NCBI RefSeq assembly: GCF_000204055.1
Contig: NW_006768775.1
Coordinates: 1,776,544 to 1,840,543 of the forward strand
Source of the DNA: Melampsora larici-populina 98AG31
Lineage: Eukaryota; Basidiomycota; Pucciniomycetes; Pucciniales; Melampsoraceae
Length of the DNA stretch: 64,000 bases
Direction of reading: 5' to 3'
Positions 9,352 to 21,783 of this stretch are shown piece after piece (position 1 is the first letter of the stretch; the number at the start of each line of letters is the position of its first letter). The position numbers and the translations under genes are program-made. The notes under the pieces were generated by a model. That model saw nothing but the letters and a program-made list of their open reading frames with translations. It did no database searches and was not told where the DNA came from.

Positions 9352-9368
9352 TACACCGCGGCACGGCC
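9352..9368. repeat. Left terminal inverted repeat of the CACTA-like element
   Basis: TACACCGCGGCACGGCC pairs with 21767-21783 in inverted orientation, differing only at two purine positions. Confidence 0.65.
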
Positions 9369-9600
9369 GAGACCACCTCCAGGCCGCCTTAGGGGTCCGA
9401 CTTCAGGCGGTCAATTCCAAAATGCACCAAGGCCGTATTTCGACCGGTCCCAGCGGTCGACCGCCACTTGGCGGTAGGTGGTGCGGCCCACAGGCCGCCG
9501 CTAAACCGCCATAAGGCCATAATTGGTCTGCCGGATGGCGGTCACGGGGGGTTGGCCCCGATAGAATAACCCGCACCTGGTGCCGCGTGAGCCCTGAATC
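9369..9600. repeat. GC-rich left subterminal region
   Basis: Dense short motifs in both orientations (AGGCCGCC, GGCGGT, GCGGTCGACCGC, ACCGCC) stand out from AT-rich surroundings. Similar motifs occur at 21540-21766. In CACTA elements such subterminal repeats bind element-encoded proteins; that role is inferred here. Confidence 0.5.
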
Positions 9601-9850
9601 CATCCATCCCCGCCCAGGTTTACAGCTCAGCAATCCAAAATATAGATTTGACTCGGCAATGGCGATCAAGCCATGCGCTCACGATTAGGCACAGAAAGAT
9701 GATGATCTGGGTCATCATCATCATATTGCAAAAAGAGAGAAGACAGTTTGGAAAACAAGATATTTGATAGCTTGATCGGATTCACAATTGGCTGGGTAGA
9801 TTAAAATTCCAAGCGATGCTGGCCCTTTCCCTGTGATTGACCTCGAAACT

Positions 9851-11836
9851 TCACTCAGGAGTGGCTTGTAGCGGTATACCAGCGATGATCTCGACGTCCG
9901 ATGGCAACTTGAAGTCATATTTTTTCTTCACCTCAACAAAGGTTGTTTTACCAGTAAAAACCTCCTTATCTTTGGCATATACCAGGCTATAAAACCTGCA
10001 TCATTTGATCGCGTCAGTTCAAATACATTGATTCCACGACAGTAGGAAGAAAAAACTGACGAAACCGAATAATTGCCCGGTTTTGATCTCAAAACGTTCA
10101 GCTGTCCATCAACCGCGTCCCATATAGAGCTGGAGCCTCGGCCAATTTGGTAGATGCGTGCTGCTTCGCGCCGCTTCGGGATGATAATTACAGCGTCAGT
10201 TGTTTCTGAACACGTGTGGGGGACACCAAAAAGAGCACACTGACCAAGTATGCTAGCCTGGCGCGCGTAGCACCCGAGGTGGACGCCCACAACGAGGCGG
10301 AGTTTGCATGTTTGCCAACGGTGTCAAATTTTTGGGCAATCTAGTAATGCACCCATGTCAGATTCGGTTTAGATATACTTTGACCCAATACTGACTGACC
10401 AAGTACATCAGATCCTCTATGTAAGGTACCACAATTCTGGATTCGCCTTCGCCTTCGCGTGGTTCGCTGTTGCCATCTCCTTCGCCTTCGCCTTCACCCT
10501 CACGTGCCCCGTCTCCTTCTCCGTGGCTGGAATTGTGATACTCGTCAATGCCGGTCAAAAGCTTCAGATTAATATCAGCGCAAATAGGATGAGGGCGATG
10601 CTCAATTGGTTTGAATTGAAGTACTAACCAACTTGTGATACCTCTCACGCACATGTTTCAAATGATTTCTGATAGCTTTGTGATATAACTTGGTAGCTGT
10701 TGCATCGGTGATACCTAGGTTTTTGGGGGGAAGGTGATCCGCTTTCCATGCTGGAGATTGACTGTTGCAATGTTGCTGATACCGTGGGTAATTGATGTCA
10801 CTGTGTGAAGGTATACCTAATAAAATGAGTTCTTATGACGCACTTTGATGGTGTTGAATAGGGAATGGGGCAGCCAAACCCCCTGGATTTTTTTTCCCGC
10901 ACGACGACCACGACCACCAGTGTCCACAGCGGTGTAAGCCTCCAAGATGGGATTAGTGATCATCTCCATCGCTTTCCCAACAATCAGTTGCTGTAACCTC
11001 AACCTGCATCAGTTTCAACAGAGTGGAATGCTTAGGTTTTGGCTTACGTTGAGCTCTTTGCTTGCCACCCAAACAGCTTGGGAAACAACGGGAGCATTGT
11101 TGGTCCTATTAGTGGCCTCCTCTGGGTGGTTTGTAGCCGTGGTCAACGCCTCTTCAACAGTGTCCTTCAGGTTGGCAACCTCAAGGGTGAGGCTATCTAC
11201 CTTGCTTTCCATGTTGGATAGCTTCGCCAAGATACGGGCCAGGAACGTGGATTGGGCGATGTGTCAATTGTCCACTCCGTATACCTGCAAAGCACAGTTT
11301 GAATATAGGTGGAAGGAAAGACAATGACAAAATTCACCTGTGCAAGGTTTTGTGCGGTTAACTCATGGTCAATATCCAAGCCGGCATCCTGGCACAAAGC
11401 TTGAAATGCCTGGAGATTGCTTCCAGCAAGTGGTCGGGAGTAGCTCATGCCCTCGTGGTTATCCAATGGTGGAGTTTCACGTGGGTACCTCTCACTCTGG
11501 GAAAGGGTCCCTCGTCGATTGGGACTCTGGGACCTATTGGTTCAAGGACGATGTCTGTCCCCATCTGGAGAACGTGTCTCGCGGGATCCTGGTGCGGCGA
11601 AACATTAGGAAGGGGTGGGGGTTGAATTAGAAAGGAGAGTGACTCACCAAGGGGTCTATGATTGTTCAGATCACGGAGAGACACAGCAATTGAGGGGGAA
11701 TTAGCCAGTCCCTCTCCCCCCAAATTGGGTCCAAACGATAAGTCCATCAAATCGTCTGAGTCTTTGGTCAGCACCTGATCAGGCCAAAACGGACAAGCAA
11801 AAACTCACTCAGGCTCTGAGCTGGTGTAAGTGGCAT
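9851..11836 (-). CDS. Hypothetical multi-exon gene inside the CACTA-like element
   Basis: Function unknown. Start ATG at 11836 (MPLTPAQSL), stop TGA at 9851 (ending GIPLQATPE). Visible exon pieces in order are: a Ser/Asp/Leu part (SDDLMDLSFGPNLGGEG) near 11770-11645; a Pro-rich part near 11630-11450; LAGSNLQAFQALCQDAG near 11435-11340; a predicted coiled-coil heptad stretch (MESKVDSLTLEVANLKDTVE) at about 11215-11150; a basic part (GKAMEMITNPILEAYTAVD) at 10995-10840; GITDATATKLYHKAIRNHL near 10710-10630; a Gly/Glu tandem repeat (EGEGEGEGDG) near 10520-10440; FDTVGKHANSASLWASTSGA near 10335-10260; PKRREAARIYQIG then SKPGNYSV near 10190-10060; and FYSLVYAKDKEVFTGKTTF near 10000-9900. The coiled coil suggests self-association. 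Its position inside the terminal repeats suggests it travels with the transposon. Exon joins are approximate. Confidence 0.5.
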
Positions 11837-12399
11837 GATTATATTTGTTTGGGGTGTTAAATAAAGCAAAAGAATGTTGTTGGATGTGAGTCAAAATCGG
11901 ATTGAAGTGGGCTGAAGAGGGAAGAGGGAAGAGGTGTTGACTCGCACAAGGTCAAACACAAGTTGGTTCTATTTGAAATCTTGGCAGTTGGTGAGTGAAC
12001 TGAGTATTATCTCACAAGGGTTACACGTCAAAGACAATTCTCTTTTCCTTCCAATGGCCTTTTGAAGTGGTTGTTCAATTGATTTTGAACAACCTCTTCA
12101 CTTGTTGCTTGAACATCTGATTGAATTGACTTATAAGATATCATGACACCCTAATAGTGTTTCAAAATTGGCTTATATTTGCTCAGATTTAAAAAGATAC
12201 CTTCAACTTCGTGATCAAGAAGATGTGATTTGGACATCAAGATTTCAATCTTGTCAAAAAAAATTGTAAGAAATCAGCTTCTCAGGTTGTTTGACAAATT
12301 GTGCTTCATTTGGTGAGTATATTGAGTGTTTGCAAGCCCTGTAGGGAAGCACCTCATTTCGCGAATTGTGGTCCTCCGTTTGGCCTTTGAGAGTCATGT
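11837..12399. other. Spacer inside the CACTA-like element
   Basis: AT-rich DNA between the start of the hypothetical gene and the first palindrome. It should hold the promoter of the minus-strand gene. No exon, repeat or RNA gene was recognised. Confidence 0.35.
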
Positions 12400-12725
12400 A
12401 TTGAAGCACCGCATCTCGTGAGATGCGGTGCTTCAATCCAAAACAGCGAGATTATTGAAAATCAATAATGTCGCGCAATGTGGTACTCCTTTTGGGGTTT
12501 GAGAATCATGTATTGAAGCACCACTTTTCGCGAAGCACCACATTTCGCGAAATGTGGTGCTTCAATACATGATTCTCAAGGCTATAGTGATTTTATGAGC
12601 GTGCGAAGCACCGCATCTCGTGAGATGCGGTGCTTCAATCCAAAACGGCAACATCATTGAAAATCAAAATTTACTATAACTTGGAGATTCATGTATTGAA
12701 GCACCACATTTCGCAAAATGTGGTG
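12400..12725. repeat. Left cluster of 32-bp palindromes
   Basis: Four near-perfect palindromes share the half-site GAAGCACCRCATYTC. They lie at 12400-12437 (2-bp centre), 12532-12563 (inside a longer inverted repeat with arms 12501-12524 and about 12554-12577), 12605-12636, and 12699-12725, where the gap begins inside the right arm. Flanking text is also repeated (gagaatcatgtatt, aaaacggc). Each can fold into a stem of 15-18 bp with almost no loop. Confidence 0.85.
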
Positions 12726-13130
12726 NNNNNNNNNNNNNNNNNNNNNNNNNNNNNNNNNNNNNNNNNNNNNNNNNNNNNNNNNNNNNNNNNNNNNNNNNNN
12801 NNNNNNNNNNNNNNNNNNNNNNNNNNNNNNNNNNNNNNNNNNNNNNNNNNNNNNNNNNNNNNNNNNNNNNNNNNNNNNNNNNNNNNNNNNNNNNNNNNNN
12901 NNNNNNNNNNNNNNNNNNNNNNNNNNNNNNNNNNNNNNNNNNNNNNNNNNNNNNNNNNNNNNNNNNNNNNNNNNNNNNNNNNNNNNNNNNNNNNNNNNNN
13001 NNNNNNNNNNNNNNNNNNNNNNNNNNNNNNNNNNNNNNNNNNNNNNNNNNNNNNNNNNNNNNNNNNNNNNNNNNNNNNNNNNNNNNNNNNNNNNNNNNNN
13101 NNNNNNNNNNNNNNNNNNNNNNNNNNNNNN
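12726..13130. other. Assembly gap (405 N)
   Basis: A run of undetermined bases begins within a palindrome of the left cluster. Self-complementary repeats commonly break assemblies, so more palindromes may be hidden here. Open frames spanning the gap are artefacts. Confidence 0.98.
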
Positions 13131-13216
13131 ATAATAAATCGTATTCTCTTTGAAGCACAGCATTTTAATGAAGTGCTTCCAAGTTTACGTTTTAGTTTGT
13201 TCTGATTTGGAGCTTG

Positions 13217-13250
13217 GGAAGCTCCGCATCTCACAAGATGCGGAGCTTCC
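13217..13250. repeat. Variant palindrome (GGAAGCTCCGCATCT half-site)
   Basis: A 15-bp arm, a 4-base centre and a complementary arm. The half-site differs from the main family (CTCC for CACC), with matching changes in both arms, so pairing is kept. Confidence 0.8.
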
Positions 13251-13271
13251 CTCAAAAACGGCGACATTGTT

Positions 13272-13330
13272 GAATATCATCCTCAGCTCTGGCTATAATA
13301 CATGTTTATCCAGAGCTGAGGATGATATTC
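13272..13330. repeat. Perfect 21-bp inverted repeat with 17-base loop
   Basis: Arms at 13272-13292 and 13310-13330 are exact reverse complements. It lies about 220 bp upstream of the companion-gene start at 13550 and is unrelated in sequence to the GAAGCACC family. It could be a hairpin or a dimeric protein-binding site. Confidence 0.85.
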
Positions 13331-13549
13331 ATACTCAATACTCAGAGATCGGATCTCTTTGAGGTCACCGTTATCATTAGAAGGTCTCTACTTTGTTGGG
13401 ACACGTTCTTTCCCTATGGTCTTTGTATTCTTCGTTTGACTATCTGGTTGTCATCTTATTTTCCTATTATCTTTATTATCTTCCTTCTCTTCCTTTTGTT
13501 TTATTTCAAACTTTCAACACCTTCGATTCTCCTTGTATACTTCTTCGCC

Positions 13550-16500
13550 ATGTCAGCTGCACCCTCAGGGGATCTTGCTCCCTGCCCTACAAAGATCAAC
13601 ATCAAGCTTAAAAGGCCAACCGAATCCGATTCAATGCAAGCCTCCTCTACGCTTACGAAAGAGCTAACCGGTCAGACGAAGGCTACCAAACTTAATGCTG
13701 AGACGGATTCAAATCTCAGCGCCGATGGGGATGCCTCACCATATTCTGAAAGCGAGGTGGACGAAACCAAATGGAAGAGGAAGTTTGCTGAGAGGAAGAG
13801 GGAGGCGGAAGACTTGGGTCAGTTTAAATAATCATTATCTGAAATCTTATGGTATTGATTGTCATTACCTTTATAGAGGACGTCAACAATCTCAACAACA
13901 ACAAGCTGGAAATCCCCGATTGGGACACCATCATGCAACATCCCGATTTCAACCCCAAACTGCCTGTACGCCAATGGGGGGCTCACGCTTACTCCTTAGG
14001 ACTGGCCAAACAACTTATGGTTGTAAAGTTCATGATCAACAACGCCTGGCAGTCGCAGACTCTTGTGAGGAAATGGCAGAAGATGGGCCGAGCAATTGCC
14101 AAGGAGGGCAAGAGTAAGTCATGAGGGTTCATTTTTTTCTGCGGTCCTGGGCGCTCAATACTGTCAGACAGACTGATCATGATTCTATTTCAGAAATTCA
14201 ATCTAAAAAATATGCTAACAAGCCCGGTTCGCTGTGGATTGAATATCCAGATGACAAACAAAACGAGAACACGGACTCCGGTGATGAAGACGATGAGGAT
14301 ACAAATGAAGCAGTTTCAGAAGATGCATCAAACAGGCGCGCCACGAAACCTTCTGTCGACAAATCACCAACCCCTGGTGATGAATCCCCAGCGAGTGAAT
14401 CCTGCGAAACCTCCAACGCCTTTCTTGCAAAATTAAAACGTGTCTCTGCGTTATCTATCAAGTCGAGTCGCCCTGCCACCAACACGACTACCGCTACTAC
14501 ATCTGCCCCTCTAGCTCGCACGCGAAAAAGGATTGTCATACCCGATCATTCAGAACAAGGCTCTGAGTTACCTCAAAGGTCTAGTCGGTCTACCACCCAC
14601 CCGGCTACCCACTCGGCCCCTCTAGCTCAAACGAAAAAACGCACAAACTCTCTCGAGCTGGCCCCAGAATCTGCGAGCGCCCCAAAAAAAGGTCGAACCT
14701 GTGCGAAACTCCATGAAGTTAGTGAAGCCATACGGACTATACTAGTAGTTTCCGAGTTCCATTCTACCTTCCCCTTAGCTCAACCTGGAAACCGTATCTT
14801 TTTGGCATTGCATGAACCATCTGGGACCAGTCTCTTCCGCCAAGATCCTGAAGAACGCGCCCTCGATCTCCAGAGGAATCTTGATTTGTGGTTGCCGGAT
14901 AATGACCTTGAGAACACGATTCAACTAGGCGAATACGGCCTTAACACGGTTATTTCGTACATTGAAAAATTCCGGAACAATCCTTTTTGGCCTGTCGAGG
15001 GAGAACAAAGACTGCTTCCAAAACTCTCCCGAATTTCCGAATTGTTGATCAATTCGGCGACCTTTCGAGACTGGCAAATTAGGGACTCACCCAGCCCTAC
15101 ACCCTCCACGCATTCAGATCAACCTGTGAGGAATTCCAATATGACTCATGAGGAACCAACAAACGAGATGACGACCACGGCGCCAGACCATCCACCCAAT
15201 CTCAACACATCGCTCAATAAAATTGATCATGTGGAACCACAGTCAATGGTTGTACCATCCACATTATCAGCTCCCGTGATTAATGTTTCACCTATGGACT
15301 CGACTACGAACACTGTTGAACTTCTCAGAGTGTGGAAAGACCCAGAACATCCAAAAATTGATATCCGGTGTTCTTCAGTAACCTTTAAAAAGGAAACCGT
15401 GAAAGATTGCATGCTGATGCATGAAGCCTGTAAACGATTGCTCCTGGGCCGCTTGTCAGCTAGCTTCACATCGTATGATCCTAATGAGCGCAGTAAAGGA
15501 AGTGAAAGGTTATATTTTAGTAAACATGTGAAACTAAGTGAATGGGTAGCTCTCAAACAAAGTAAGTAATTACCATACTTCACTCCAATATCATAGCTGG
15601 AATCAGATGCTTACGAGACTTGTACCAGACGATGGTCTTTTCCATCCTGGTTGTGAATGCCCTTGGTTCGAAGACGAAATCTTGGACTGGAATTATATAG
15701 ACTTCGAATCTGGCGAAAATCCAAGTAGTGACGTTCAAGAGAAGTCACTGTGCTACACCCTCAATCACATGCGAAATGTGAAGAAGTCTCGCATGGAGAC
15801 GGCAGGCAAATTTATACTGGCGGCTGTGGGACTAGTTGGCACCAAAGGTGGCCCTATTGAGCCGATTGCGGATCTGGAGCATTACAATCTTTCACAATTG
15901 GATGTGAAAGAATCTTTTCAATGTGCAGTCCACTATCAAAAACTACAAATGGACGACAACAGCAACAATAATCATATTCAAACTGTGGAAATGAATTGCA
16001 TCAAACAGCTGACTAAACTAGTTGATTCAATTTACGGATGCATTGAAGCCCTGGCGGTGATTCGAGCTCATAATTTTCACTACAAATGTAATGAAAAACT
16101 TCAAGGCGAACAAAAAGGAATGGATGCTACTTTTCGTCAAGTTTCTTCTACCGTTGGCCTGAGAACACAAGCTTTGGCGCCTCTTGTTTCATTTCTTTGT
16201 CTGGGATTCAAGGGGCTGCTCACTTACTGGCGCAATCCATCACGGACATACAAGACCGGTCTTATTCAGGTTTTACTGGTAACTGCACGCATGAAGAGTT
16301 ACGATTTTGTTGAAGAACCTATCTGGAAACGAACAGCAAATCTGGTGATGACTACGATATCAAGGGCTCTATTCCCCAACGGCAACATTGACGATGGAGT
16401 AGATCGATCATCTTGGGACCGCGTGATTTGCAAGAGGCAAGATGTTGCCCTTGCAATGTACCTAGACGTTTCGGATTTCTTTCAGTACTCTTCTGTTTCT

Positions 16501-16575
16501 GATTCTCTTATCCCGCCATACATGCTTCCCGTATATGAAGCATTGGCACCTGACGAGACTGATCCACATGAATAG
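13550..16575 (+). CDS. Transposon companion gene of unknown function (951 aa)
   Basis: I do not recognise this protein. Four exons join in phase: 13550-13817, 13877-14113, 14194-15565 and 15597-16575 (the last donor taken as GTAATT). The first about 90 residues are Ser/Thr/Lys-rich and acidic. Exon 2 has a compact, probably helical part (LPVRQWGAHAYSLGLAKQLM). Residues about 170-370 are low-complexity with acidic runs (SGDEDDEDTNE) and basic patches. A more ordered C-terminal half follows (HPGCECPWFEDEILDWNYI; LALVSF-type hydrophobic helices; WKRTANLVMTTI). Its position inside the CACTA terminal repeats suggests an accessory role like plant TnpA/TNP1 proteins that bind element repeats, but there is no sequence evidence for that. 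The last exon could be a separate gene starting at 15607. Host origin with later capture is the alternative. Confidence 0.6.
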
Positions 16576-16759
16576 TTGACAAGTCAATGTTTTTATTTGT
16601 TTGGAAAATAATTGTAATTTCTTGTAATTTCTTTCCTTTGTTTCAAAATTGATGATTAACTATTTCGAATCATGAAATAAAAAAGATAATATCTATATTG
16701 ATATGATATGAATATAATCAATGAATCTTTGGTTCTTCAAACATTGACCAACCTGTAAT
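16576..16759. other. AT-rich 3' region of the companion gene
   Basis: AT-rich DNA after the TAG stop at 16573, with AATAAA-like sequence near 16676. It forms part of the convergent intergenic space between the companion gene and the transposase. Confidence 0.35.
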
Positions 16760-17421
16760 GAAGCACCACATTTCACGAAATGTGGTGCTTCAATAATTAC
16801 TCAACTGACCAATTATATAATTGAAAACAACTTCATTAGGCCAACAAGAGTCTTCCTTTGAAGGATGCGCTTTTCGAAGCTATTTTTCTCCTCTCCCAAT
16901 TTTACAATGATCAAGGGTGCTTCCATAAATATCAACATGAGACTTAAAAAGGGAGAATAAGAAGTCGGGAGATGTATTGAAGCACCGCATTTCATGCAAT
17001 GTGGTGCTTCATCCAATACTCAGCAAATGTTTGAATTTTAACGAAGATCCACGGTGATTCCTTAAATTTCAAACTATGACCAAGAAAAACATGAGAGTTG
17101 CCAACGCCGAGCATAAGCCGCCGGTAGCTTTATTGAAGCACCGCATTTCATGAAATGTGGTGCTTCATTCAATAGCGCTTCCATAAACATCAACATGAGA
17201 GTTAAAATTGGCGAGAATAAGCAGTCGGGAGCAGTAATGAAGCACCACATTTCATGAAATGTGGTGCTTCATTCAATACTCAGCAAACGTATGAAGTTTA
17301 TCAAAGATCCACGGTGATTCCTTATTATTCAAACTATTACAAAACATGAGAGTTAACAATGCCGAGCACATGCCGCCGGTAGCTATATTGAAGCACCGCA
17401 TTTCATGAAATGTGGTGATTC
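16760..17421. repeat. Right palindrome array with alternating spacers
   Basis: Five palindromes of about 32 bp (GAAGCACCRCATTTC half-site) lie at 16760-16791, 16979-17010, 17135-17166, 17239-17270 and 17390-17421. From the second onward the spacers alternate: type B (about 16914-16978 and 17170-17238, with TCCATAAAYATCAACATGAG) and type A (17011-17134 and 17271-17389, with AGATCCACGGTGATTCCTTA and GCCGCCGGTAGCT). The higher-order unit is therefore about 255-260 bp, present about twice. The array lies between the 3' ends of two convergent genes. The last palindrome has one arm mismatch. Confidence 0.85.
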
Positions 17422-17437
17422 ATTCAATAGCCAAAAA

Positions 17438-20400
17438 CTACGTATTGTTCTTAGTCTTGTGCCACTCGTCCAATCCCTCATCAACAGCCCTGTTCCATTC
17501 TTCAGGTGCAACCGGGTCAAAGCCGACTGCTGCAATGCTTCTATGTAATTCACTATTGTATTGCGCCCCAGAGTTGAGGATGAAAGATTTTGTTGTATTG
17601 TGAACAATGCCACATACGCGGATGGTTGATATCTTGCGTTCTAGCTTCTTGAAATGGCACATTGTCACATTGCATTCTGCCTCAGCGCAATTATGCTGTA
17701 CATTTATGATAGCCATGATGTCCTGCAAAAGTCGTTCGTCAACCATACGTTTTATTTTTGAGTTGCGAGATTTACACATACCTTGACATCTTTGCATACC
17801 ACTTCATCAGATAACACCACCTCGCGCATTGTATAATAAGGGACGATACGCCCTCTGGTGCAAGTTTTCAACACTACCTTAGCTTGACTTGAAGCAACAC
17901 CTTGCTGCTTCCATATCGAATCAACTTGTCCAATTGACTTGTTTGCTTTGAGCTAGGTTCGAACCAGTCAGTACATGCTGTGCTATCCACCGGGGCTCAT
18001 GAGTGCAACATGGGTGGACTCACCACAATGAAATCCTTAGCTTCGACTTTTTGGCCGTTGTGCAAAGTGACACTTGTGAAAGATTGCCAGTTAAAGTCTG
18101 AACCAGATTGCTGCACACATAACGGAGTTGGTCCACGTTTCTCCAGTCCTGGATGCAAGCCAATATGAGCACACTAATGAAAAACCAACATATGTGTATA
18201 TCTCACCGGTACTCACCTCCCATGACAAACTCCCTACCACCTCCTGGTGTTAGAGAAAGGCCAAAAGATTGGGCCAACTCTGGTATTTTCAAAAATAAGT
18301 CAACCAAAGAAGACCCAGGCTTCACACGTTCGTCTATATCTTTATCAACAAAAGATGAACCGGACATCAGAATCCTCAACATCTGTTCGGTGTTGAATCT
18401 ATTTGCAATGTCTCGGCCTGGGGCTTGATGGTTTGAGTGTACTGAAGCATTACGAGTTTGTCCATTAAAGGATTCAAACTTTTCGGTTGCAAACAGGCAA
18501 GCTGGGCCAAATCTTTGAATGGAGTCTTGTAAGTGGATGAGCATGTGGAATTTGGGCTTGTTGACCCGTTGCGCTGTGCCGTTGATAAGGTGTAGTAAGA
18601 ATCTACTGATAATAATGTCGAGTTCCGCTAGATACCGGTCCATATCAGTTATCTCGGTTTGGAAAATGTAAGAGCTTAAGTAGCAAAGGGCTGTCCACAC
18701 TGCCCGCTTCTCTGGTGTCAGATGATCAAAAAGTACGAATGGAACCGCCTGTAACACCGTGCGAAATTCCTTTCCTACAAGGCTTGCATAGAAATTGATA
18801 AAAGTATGTGGTTGAATCGGTGGTATGTTCAATCCTTTTTTGTTGAAAGCTCGCCACTTGCCCGACAATTCGTTATAAATTTTAGATCCTGGCTTGGCAC
18901 CTAACTCCTTCATAGTGTGACGAAATAGATACTTTGTTATACCCAACAATACTACGTGGAGAATTTCGACAGGGGTGTCTAGATGACCGTTGAAGCCTGT
19001 AAGTGCCAAGTCATCATATATCAGTTTGCGTAATCACATGCACATAAGGGCTATGGTCACAACGTAATGAGACCCACCTTTCAGTCGCAGCATTGGGTTG
19101 AACAGGTGATATCCATGCTCCCTATTAAGCTCATTGCAAAGAGCCTCGACATCCGCCGTTGGTAGAGTGTCATGCGCCTTTTGTACCACCTTAATAAAGT
19201 AATCGAGGAGAGTATCCCTGACCCCGTATTTGCGCGACAACTCTTCTACCAATGTTTTAGTGTTACGACGTTGAGCTGTTGTCCACAGCAATTCGGTTCT
19301 TTTTCTGGTTTTGTCCCAATCGCGGAAAGGCAAATGTCCCTTAACCCAGTTTAAACCAGGCGTTAGCTCAATTACATGGGGGACGCACTTCAACCAAAAG
19401 AAGTACTTACAGGTAGCCCATCTTCATCAATACCCAAAAAGTGACGCACAAACCCACTGGATTCTTTGTCAACTTTCTTATCGACTTGTAGATCACACAT
19501 CCGACATGGTGTATTTGTACTTGCCGGGTTCAGGGTGTTTGTAATTTCCGCATGAAGAGGTCCGTCTCCCAAGCAGCAGAGTACCAGTGAGACTGCTAGT
19601 ACCTCTTCACCCAACATGTGGTCATATGTTACAAACCCGGATTCGGCCATTTGACTAAGAAAAACAATCGGACGATATGGATTTTTTGAGGTTACAAAAC
19701 AAAATAAGAGAGAGAATCTTACTTTATATCATCCACAACGTGGTCCAGTAGATCCAGAGTACCTGCACAGTTTGAAGTAGCTAAGAAATGGATGTTGAAC
19801 TCTTGATTCGACAAATCAGTGGGTAAACCAGCCAGAGTGAAGTATACACTCATGTGCTTGTTCCACTTCTTTGACACATTACCAGATGTATCATCTGAGT
19901 AGAGAATGAGAGGAACATGTCGGACCACTTTCCCATCTGCTTTAGTTCTCCATTTATTCAAAAGCGGATATTTTGTTAAAGTTGAGCCATTTCTTTCTGT
20001 TATATAAATTGCACCGCATCAGGTTGCATTTCCAAGAAATCAAAAGGATGTTGACTTACGATACATGTAATGTCCAGCCATATCCTTCAAAAAAGATCCC
20101 TCACTGAGTTGAATCTCTGTAAAAGATCTCCAGAAGTCGTCACAATCTATTGTGAACAGATTGTCTGACTCGAAATCAGGCTCATTTGGAAAGTAGATTT
20201 TGAGCCTTTGTGCGACTTCAGCATCCGGTTCAACCGTTGCAGGCAAGCATTTAGCCATCAGTTTGCCGTCTTGTTTAAAGAAAAATATGGGGACAATGAG
20301 CTGCTGAGTCCTCAGTTGAACTGGTTCGTAAATGTAGTAATGCGTGTTGTTTGAGACAACCATTGGAGGTCGTAGGTCGGGTGCCAAACCTTGTCGCCAT

Positions 20401-21456
20401 TTATGAGAGTGGGAAAATTCCTTGATTGGGCCCTCTGTGACTAGATCTGGGATGAAAGTCAAGTGAGGACTGACTAGAGGGTTTGCCAATTCCTACAAAC
20501 CATTAAGGTTGTCAGAGACGAACCCTCGAGTATTGGACCCAAAGTAATCGTATGATAAGACTCACATTGGTTATAATTGTTTGTACATTCAAACCAAAGA
20601 GTGGTGTGCCGGCAGGGCTGACTCGTTCTTGTATGTCCAGGCCCATTTTTTTTTTATTTTTTTTCACAACTTCACTCAATGAGTTCCAGTGTGGAAGGTT
20701 GAGGTCACAGATCTTCATAATTGCACGTATTCGATGGTAGTCGGCCCGCGAAAGAAGATTTCGGGGATTGCCAATGATGAGGAGTCCGGCCACATGCTAT
20801 TAAGTAGGTTAGACACAACACTTTTCCTCAACGTGAAATAGGGGGGCAACAACACTCACTTCTTTTCTTTTAAAGGGATACCATGCGCCAGGCTCATCAT
20901 GCACATTGTCCACAGTTTCATCTTCACTAGAACCATGTTCAGACCCGTCATCCTCCTGTTCGTCCTCAAGCGCTTCAAACGCCAGTCGAAGGCTATTAAA
21001 ATCGATTCCGTCGTCTGAGTGATCTGAGTCATTGTATAACCCAAGAGGGTCTCCATCCTCCAGGCTGCGTAGGAATGAGAGGGGTGATGGTCGCCGGTCT
21101 GGTGTGTCTTTGTTACCATCAGGATTGTTCGGTGTTGGACTTGGGGGTGAAGAGTGTTCAATAGGTGGGATTGAATACTCTGCTTGTTGAAAAAATTTTT
21201 GGTCGGCCTCATCTTGTTGCTCTTGTGCAATGTAGCGTGCCACCGCGTCTGCATGTGGCAGTGAGAGAACATGTCGCTCGTATTCTCGCATACCTCTAGA
21301 ACCTGAGCACACAGTGCATCGATACTTCTTGAGGCCGGGGAGCGATGGATCATACTTTATGTCTGCATAAAGACATTTTGATTTAGTGTTGGATGTGAAA
21401 GCAAGGTAAGCATAAGGTCATGACTTACATGGATGTGGCTGGTTGTTTGATGTCAT
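17438..21456 (-). CDS. Tnp2-type CACTA transposase
   Basis: Transposase of the CACTA/CMC superfamily, expected to act in the nucleus on the element ends. Start ATG at 21456 (MTSNNQPHP), intron, then a Cys2-type finger-like segment (YRCTVCSGSRGMREYERHV) near 21325-21255 that may bind DNA. An acidic linker follows to 20870. The Tnp2 core is split over several exons: 20793-20560, 20489-20045, 19985-19730 (DSRG-like LILYSDDTSGNVSKKW), 19650-19420 (Cys pair TPCRMCDLQ), 19393-19075 and 18985-18205. The last holds GFNGHLDTPVEILHVVLLGI and the downstream FHMLIHLQDSIQRFGPA...ESFNG block typical of fungal Tnp2 proteins. C-terminal exons run to a stop at 17438. Asp and Glu residues fit an RNase-H-fold enzyme, but I cannot assign the triad with certainty. 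No internal stop was seen in the exon frames, so the copy may be intact. The family call is strong; splice sites are approximate. Confidence 0.8.
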
Positions 21457-21539
21457 CGTGGAAGGAAGTGATCGATTTGCGATGTGAGTGGTACCACCTT
21501 GTGTTTGTGGTTTGTGGTGTGTTTTGCGTGTTTGCGCGT

Positions 21540-21766
21540 GGCGCGCTCCTGCATTCGAGGCGCGGTCCTTGTTGACCGGCAGACGCGATCACTGGTGGAC
21601 CCTTTAAAGGCCACAAGCAGGCGGAAACAGGACCTTGCACGAAGGCGAGGCCAGACCCAGCCCTTAGGCAGCCCAGTGGCGGCCTGCCGACGAGTCAGAA
21701 GGCCGCCAAGGTCGCTAGACCTAAGTGCGACCTTATTCTCCCGCGCGGACCTCTTTTTGACCGAAA
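21540..21766. repeat. GC-rich right subterminal region
   Basis: GC-rich tract with GGCGGCCTGCC, AAGGCCGCC and repeated AGGC motifs, mirroring the left end at 9369-9600. It probably overlaps the promoter of the transposase gene, which starts at 21456. Confidence 0.5.
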
Positions 21767-21783
21767 GGCTGTGCCGTGGTGTA
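21767..21783. repeat. Right terminal inverted repeat of the CACTA-like element
   Basis: Reverse complement of TACACCACGGCACAGCC. It lies 311 bp upstream of the transposase start codon and at the outer edge of a GC-rich subterminal tract. Confidence 0.65.

Follow-up and report, generated by a model that had tools for sequence, protein, structure and literature searches.

A 12.4-kb segment in the genome of the rust fungus Melampsora larici-populina raises the question of what a CACTA-like transposon does with two genes that accompany its transposase and resemble nothing recognisable. The segment lies in a stretch of 64,000 nucleotides, referred to here as the window (C11:1776544-1840543 in the 98.3-Mb genome searched), and an earlier sequence-only reading had described it as an element enclosing a Tnp2-type transposase and two uncharacterised genes, an unusual protein set. 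In this work we confirm that the segment is a real CACTA-like mobile element, identify one companion (gene A) as the partner of the transposase in a large lineage, and propose that the other (gene B) may form, with palindrome arrays on both sides of it, a module through which the element recognises itself.

Transposable elements account for 47-92% of rust genomes (PMC12210899). Among the ways in which fungal transposons may escape silencing, one that has been put forward is a TET/JBP dioxygenase, which several transposon lineages carry (PMC12730594).

Palindrome arrays around gene B

The window element runs from CACC to GGTG over 12,428 bp, probably from 9354 to 21781, and holds its genes in the order transposase (Tnp, 21456-17438), B (13550-16575) and A (11836-9851). 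All three recur, with order and orientation unchanged, in a second full-length copy on C4; C22 has them much diverged, in the same order and orientation as the window. A 2,741-bp derivative on C7 retains roughly 190 bp at either end (85 and 89% identical) and one palindrome, and its remainder has no match to the window element at E<=1e-5.

The most unusual feature of the element is the presence of palindrome arrays on both sides of gene B, which did not figure in the earlier account. A 32-bp palindrome occupies 11 window sites, including one degenerate and one cut by a run of N, in two spacers, one between the start codons of A and B (12346-13249) and one between the stop codons of B and Tnp (16760-17421). 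Gene B and the sites, which carry no strand, are as follows.

13550..16575, plus strand: gene B, 951 amino acids, 4 exons, accessory (GT-AG splicing model, genome search)
12346..12377: palindrome site, degenerate
12403..12434: palindrome site
12532..12563: palindrome site, 16 of 16 pairs
12605..12636: palindrome site
12698..12725: palindrome site interrupted by the N run
13218..13249: palindrome site, variant arms altered on both sides
16760..16791: palindrome site between the 3' ends of B and Tnp
16979..17010: palindrome site
17135..17166: palindrome site
17239..17270: palindrome site, 16 of 16 pairs
17390..17421: palindrome site adjoining the Tnp stop codon

A genome-wide search for this palindrome at up to two mismatches returned 35 strand hits, corresponding to 18 sites (window 8, C4 9, C7 1), with none outside the element family and none for the reversed control. 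Within the window, 12 dyads have at least 12 of 15 pairs, and nine of them fall in the two B spacers. By comparison, 31 control stretches at A or Tnp loci where no B was found (3.2-4.0 kb, 111 kb in total) yielded 11 scattered dyads, no two alike, and no palindrome array, although each stretch samples its element only in part. Reading the window, C4, C7, C26 and C53 gave 25 sites, 17 of them distinct; in these, 263 of 289 dyad cells are Watson-Crick pairs against a mean of 221 and a maximum of 235 in 1,000 shuffles. This count overstates the case, since the 17 dyads were selected with a dyad threshold, under which C22 gave none, and share an origin through duplication. At 9 of the 17 pair positions more than one pair type occurs. 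Several dyads are loop-free, and a longer tandem unit underlies the right-hand array.

The core of the palindrome, CATTTCNNGAAATG, is found at 48 sites in the genome (control 2), 28 of which are on C4 (6), C11 (5), C26 (6), C30 (5), C53 (4) and C169 (2); of the other 20, 18 stand alone and two form a pair on C11. Within the array, positions 12726-13130 are a run of 405 N, and the C4 copy is almost without sequence there, so that the array has probably left a gap in the assembly at this place. Eight length differences separate the window and C4 copies: two are assembly gaps, and four of the other six are in the A-B array.

Gene B and a second repeat family

The named protein closest to gene B is MELLADRAFT_92311 (94%), probably its C4 counterpart. 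Our genome searches scored 48 of 83 candidates for gene B, 64 of 637 for the transposase and 87 of 152 for gene A, and statements on neighbouring loci refer to the loci listed from them. For gene B, 51 matches were grouped into 35 loci. Eight of these (C11, C4, C22, C26, C53, C30, C6 and C21) form a close group, 51-61% identical in the best part, window and C4 copies aside, and the other 27 are 24-30% identical, mostly over residues 635-940 (the C-terminal ~300 amino acids). Only four B loci are within 25 kb of a listed transposase locus: those of the window, C4 and C22, and a distant relative on C9. The distant family (for example C5:2182621-2183550 and C100:67013-67912) has no listed transposase locus within 25 kb at 26 of 27 loci; the 3' flank of the C5 member holds one unrelated 30-bp dyad (L078, near 559), in which the core is absent.

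Four members of the close group, on C26, C30, C53 and C6, belong to a second multi-copy repeat, with no listed A or transposase within 25 kb.

C26:657601-660600 (L076): second repeat, with B relative
C30:1018270-1019341: second repeat, with B relative
C53:122973-123730: second repeat, with B relative
C6:1937274-1938486: second repeat, with B relative
C169:38884-39174: second repeat, no B relative listed

The edges of the repeat are sharp: identity between C26 and C30 is 96-100% as far as L076:1924, and C53 joins from L076:2102. In the 3-kb stretch beside the C26 B relative, four dyads stand just past the stop codon, with other arms and the same core, which in three of them reads CATTTCATGAAATG and in one has GT at its centre. 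This C26-type palindrome, searched at up to three mismatches, has 23 sites (C26 7, C30 5, C53 5, C6 3, C169 3; control 0). Palindromes flank B on both sides at C26, at C53 and in the window and C4 copies, and arrays are present at six of the eight close B loci. Across the two families the B relatives are 50-55% identical in their best-matching part, with the core in common and the arms different. As to whether B of the window and B of C22 stem from a single capture, the distances are star-like (52.1, 50.4 and 51.4% over 397 positions).

A Melampsora americana protein shares 94% identity with the last 36 residues of the C26 B relative, which pointed at first to B as a captured single-copy host gene; this idea was dropped because C26, C30, C53 and C6 are copies of a repeat. 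The same observation bears on the earlier concern that the companion genes might occur alone, in single-copy syntenic positions: these loci have B and no listed transposase nearby, yet B is there part of a multi-copy repeat and not a single-copy syntenic gene. Of the two outcomes that the earlier reading named as refuting it, neither was borne out in full.

Ends, copies and target site

The features that delimit the element are the following.

9354..21781: whole element; same ends in the C4 copy, unrelated flanks
9354..9368, plus strand: left terminal inverted repeat (TIR); exact pattern six times genome-wide, all in the family of the window element
21767..21781, minus strand: right TIR; same exact-pattern genome count
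9354..9539: left subterminal GC-rich region, with an 85% identical counterpart on C7
21590..21781: right subterminal GC-rich region, with an 89% identical counterpart on C7
9352..9353: TA outside the left end, putative target-site duplication; TA at six of seven ends in four copies
21782..21783: TA outside the right end; TA at six of seven ends in four copies

The C4 copy is 98.8% identical over 11,981 aligned bases and spans 12,399 bp, including an assembly gap. Its inverted-repeat ends are the same and its flanks are unrelated to those of the window, which establishes the borders as real. The sequence-only reading thus holds for the structure of the element: the 17-bp inverted ends lie where it placed them and match at 15 of 17 positions, GC-rich subterminal regions are present at both ends, and all three genes recur between the same TIRs on C4.

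The six exact occurrences of the 15-bp TIR pattern are two in the window, two on C4 and one each on C7 and C27. At up to two mismatches there are 109/117 matches against 70/76 for the reversed control, so that inexact matches are mostly due to chance. The left end is found elsewhere on C4 (100%) and in part on C7 (85%), and the right end on C4 and C27 (94% each) and C7 (89%). The C27 copy is a 1.9-kb fragment holding the right end; this truncated copy, with the right end and part of the transposase gene, has as its neighbour, some 1 kb away, the gene-A match of a different element with A and transposase (C27:789554-799425). For the C22 element, ends were looked for and not found. The presence of subterminal repeats is weakly suggested by AGGCCGCC, which occurs four times in the two 250-bp ends, where 95% of 300 shuffles reach at most three and the maximum is four. 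The string CACCRC, with the same A/G variation, appears both in the TIR (9354-9368) and in the palindrome arms, a likeness of 6 bp that may be due to chance.

A TA dinucleotide abuts both ends of the window and C4 copies and the right ends of the C7 and C27 copies, and the left end of C7, flanked by AA, is the sole exception among seven. The element probably inserts at TA. Two points count against this: the TA could belong to the TIR instead of being a duplication, and the empty site that the earlier reading called for was not recovered, the joined flanks of the window copy, the one insertion searched for in this way, matching only themselves. No 2-3 bp duplication other than TA fits at the ends of the copies.

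The transposase and gene A form a core pair

The two genes of the core are annotated as follows.

17438..21456, minus strand: transposase gene, 1,111 amino acids, 11 exons (GT-AG splicing model, residue alignment)
9851..11836, minus strand: gene A, ~10 exons, about 430-490 amino acids, coiled-coil-like stretch (splicing model, relatives)

In the CMCT clade, the DDE transposase has C(2)C and H(3-4)H motifs located after the second D and before the last E (PMC12730594). The window transposase has the complete CMCT/EnSpm residue set (D433, D520, CRMC of the CxxC form at 540-543, HMLIH of the HxxxH form at 809-813, and E830/E833), in columns that are invariant or nearly so across 28 transposase relatives, and its N-terminus has a zinc-finger-like CxxC/H-H. 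The termini, CACCR...YGGTG with 15 of 17 positions matched, are of the 5'-CAC..GTG-3' type of EnSpm/CACTA elements. Pfam gave no match above its cut-offs for the transposase, gene A or gene B proteins, in keeping with the earlier description of the two companions as lacking a recognisable domain. PF02992 (Transposase_21/tnp2) does match 8 of the 28 relatives scanned at E<=0.1 (best 1.8e-5), though not the window protein itself. The earlier assignment as Tnp2-type appears to hold. Judged by these residues and termini, the element appears to be a cut-and-paste DNA transposon of the EnSpm/CACTA (CMCT) clade.

A protein search with the transposase, in which the best 7,995 candidates were scored, returned 170 relatives at E<=0.001; among the 120 listed, all named ones are from rusts. 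The genome search gave 183 matches, and those listed form 62 loci. Three relatives (C37:614201-616102, C30:1053231-1054694 and C23:294130-295593; 43-45% identical) have ~480-620 residues in one open frame, unlike the 11-exon window gene, and possibly represent a lineage with few introns.

Gene A, with 76 matches grouped into 40 loci, is closely linked to the transposase. The A loci within 10, 15 and 25 kb of a listed transposase locus number 18, 21 and 24 of 40 (window and C4 included), for chance expectations of 0.55, 0.8 and 1.3. The strand is that of the transposase in 24 of 24 linked loci, and A is 3' of the nearest transposase in 22 of them, the exceptions being C22, where A lies 3' of another transposase, and C51; for the remaining 16 A loci no transposase is listed at up to 25 kb. 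Gene B stands between the two only in the window, C4 and C22 among the loci listed, and the distant C9 relative stands between a widely spaced pair. At two C5 loci, 2.4 and 2.6 kb separate the matched A and transposase, too little for a B gene. The rarity of B between A and the transposase suggests that a transposase and A without B are the usual form. The transposase and gene A are therefore the core pair of the lineage in this genome and B is an accessory gene, so that the protein set, earlier thought unusual, is ordinary as regards A (24 of 40 loci linked) and departs from the usual form in B.

The model of gene A (~490 amino acids, 10 exons) is uncertain; the public model has 432 amino acids, and the closest named protein is MELLADRAFT_84794 (88%). 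A stretch that is coding in relative P0004 has an in-frame stop in the window and is open on C4, where a one-base length difference occurs elsewhere in the modelled coding sequence. Gene A may act as a TnpA-like partner, working with the transposase at the subterminal GC-rich regions. Its Pfam match of coiled-coil type is weak and below the cut-off. The predicted structure is poor (confidence 54.7) and has no fold match at E<=0.001.

Proposed working and alternative explanations

The transposase and gene A would supply the core of the element, to which gene B and the palindrome arrays in both of its spacers would be added as a module. B would be a DNA-binding protein with sequence specificity that sits on the dyads as a dimer and thereby marks its own element; dyad-bound B would keep the genes of the element transcribed, through activation or anti-silencing, as VANC for VANDAL elements, and the effect would be confined to the element because the palindromes are private to the family. 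We consider the arguments for and against such a self-recognition module, in which B binds the dyads and activates or un-silences its own element, to be evenly balanced. Activation or anti-silencing is the likeliest effect, and repression is possible. It is conceivable, though on the doubtful side, that B and its dyad arrays are a portable anti-silencing or self-activation module with sequence specificity, passed between at least two Melampsora repeat families, each with a private palindrome, as a fungal counterpart of independent origin to VANC/VANDAL.

Comparison with C22 indicates that the genes have a history as proteins. Over the aligned codons of B, A and Tnp, the proportion of synonymous differences (pS) is 0.72-0.83, at or near saturation, and the nonsynonymous proportion (pN) is low (B 0.30-0.34, Tnp 0.14-0.26, A 0.26), from which it follows that all three were long maintained; the C22 B has one stop within the compared stretch. 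Between the window and C4, synonymous/nonsynonymous changes number 6.5/15.5 for Tnp, 9.5/23.5 for B and 2/6 for A.

Several observations weigh against the self-recognition module. The ratio of nonsynonymous to synonymous rates (dN/dS) between the window and C4 is 0.68-0.91, indicating weak constraint, one internal stop interrupts B on C4, and gene A is doubtful on C4 and in the window alike, so that decay of both copies is possible. The association of B with palindromes is imperfect: C22 has B and both other genes, yet in place of an array a single degenerate palindrome; at C21 a B relative stands without a listed palindrome site; and C7 and C169 have palindrome sites without a listed B. The core is exact in 11 of the 17 sites listed for the window and C4 copies. 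The two palindrome families amount to two lineages, so the link between B and the palindromes rests on few independent events. The structure prediction for B is unusable (predicted local distance difference test score, pLDDT, 29.7), and the 3'-side arrays could act as RNA hairpins.

This last possibility extends to an alternative in which the palindromes are RNA or chromatin-boundary elements, either terminators or hairpins formed where the convergent transcripts of B and Tnp have their 3' untranslated regions, unlinked to the B protein. Five sites do lie between the 3' ends of B and Tnp, and pairing is preserved through changes on both arms, as hairpins would have it. Six more sites (one degenerate, one N-cut), however, are upstream of the A and B start codons, several dyads have no loop, and the same core recurs beside B in another repeat family; we think this explanation improbable. 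That recurrence is also hard to reconcile with an ordinary CACTA-like element in which B was passively captured and the arrays are neutral tandem duplications. The tandem unit under the right-hand array, the membership of B in a 35-locus family and the known cases of CACTA gene capture and of EnSpm elements with 4-5 open reading frames (PMC8978399, PMC6431247) speak for it, but neutral duplication fails to explain the symmetric arm changes, the palindrome site in the C7 derivative or the near-saturated pS with low pN in B. Its probability seems to us as low as that of the RNA or boundary account.

B could instead be the transposase or mobility protein of a second, independent transposon (C26/C30/C53/C6), with the palindromes as its cis sites and a copy inserted into the CACTA-like element. 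Copies of the C26-type unit recur with sharp edges and without a listed A or Tnp relative within 25 kb, and the outermost 3'-side palindrome of the unit is ~250-430 bp inside the edges; with 64 of 637 Tnp candidates scored, a diverged Tnp may lie near C26. The outer part of a nested element would have little room, since the last window palindrome is 16 bp from the Tnp stop and at C22 the matched parts of B and Tnp are just 344 bp apart, and Pfam finds no known catalytic domain in B. We regard this origin as unlikely.

Relation to known systems

The EnSpm families of rust fungi (Kojima 2025, PMC12730594) are alike in their 5'-CAC..GTG-3' ends and in a CMCT transposase with C(2)C and H(3-4)H. 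They too carry accessory genes, namely a TET/JBP dioxygenase, and are described with 3-bp duplications, as against TA here; Pfam found no TET/JBP domain in the three proteins of the window element, and A and B are other proteins. ESTA elements, EnSpm-like with TA duplications, share a rust host and the CMCT clade, and the TA beside six of seven ends here may be a likeness at the insertion site; their transposases are recognised in the same source by RAG1 similarity, and some relatives of the window transposase match PF02992. The 5'-TGT..ACA-3' termini given there for PlavakaA are not those of the window element.

Plant CACTA/Spm elements, with TnpD and TnpA, are similar in having a Tnp2-type transposase with a partner and derivatives that retain the cis-acting ends (PMC2613891). 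They differ, in the strict sense, in their CACTA ends and 3-bp duplication, where the window element has CACCR and TA alone is repeated; in gene A no likeness to TnpA was seen, Pfam giving no match. The subterminal repeats of soybean Tgm form palindromes (PMC2613891), while the palindromes of the window element are internal and follow gene B, not the ends.

The closest parallel for the proposed working is VANDAL/VANC of Arabidopsis (PMC5735166, PMC10398659), where an accessory transposon gene is likewise associated with dense, largely private noncoding motif arrays, tandem-repeat dynamics and motifs that differ between related families. Dense, noncoding and family-private arrays are present here (18 and 23 sites in two repeat families and partial copies), and the motif diverges along with the protein in two families; C22 does not fit. 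As described in those sources, VANDAL elements belong to a Mutator-like superfamily, with DUF1985/DUF287 proteins and a 9-bp directional motif in place of a 32-bp palindrome, and binding and methylation loss are demonstrated for VANC, compared with linkage in sequence here. Membership in VANDAL is excluded by the CMCT transposase and by a B without Pfam match, and the likeness is one of working alone. It is the resemblance of an accessory gene with private, changing arrays to VANC/VANDAL21 that suggests that B may bind the dyads and act on its own element. No description of the element or of the B-palindrome pair was found in published titles, abstracts and passages; the element may be in a repeat library.

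Significance

With gene A, the analysis adds a second core gene to a large CACTA-like lineage of rusts; the proteins listed for this lineage carry only hypothetical or uncharacterised names. If the proposal for B is true, a transposon gene with private palindromic targets would constitute a second, sequence-specific route of escape from silencing, and the protein-target pairs are defined well enough for direct testing in vitro.

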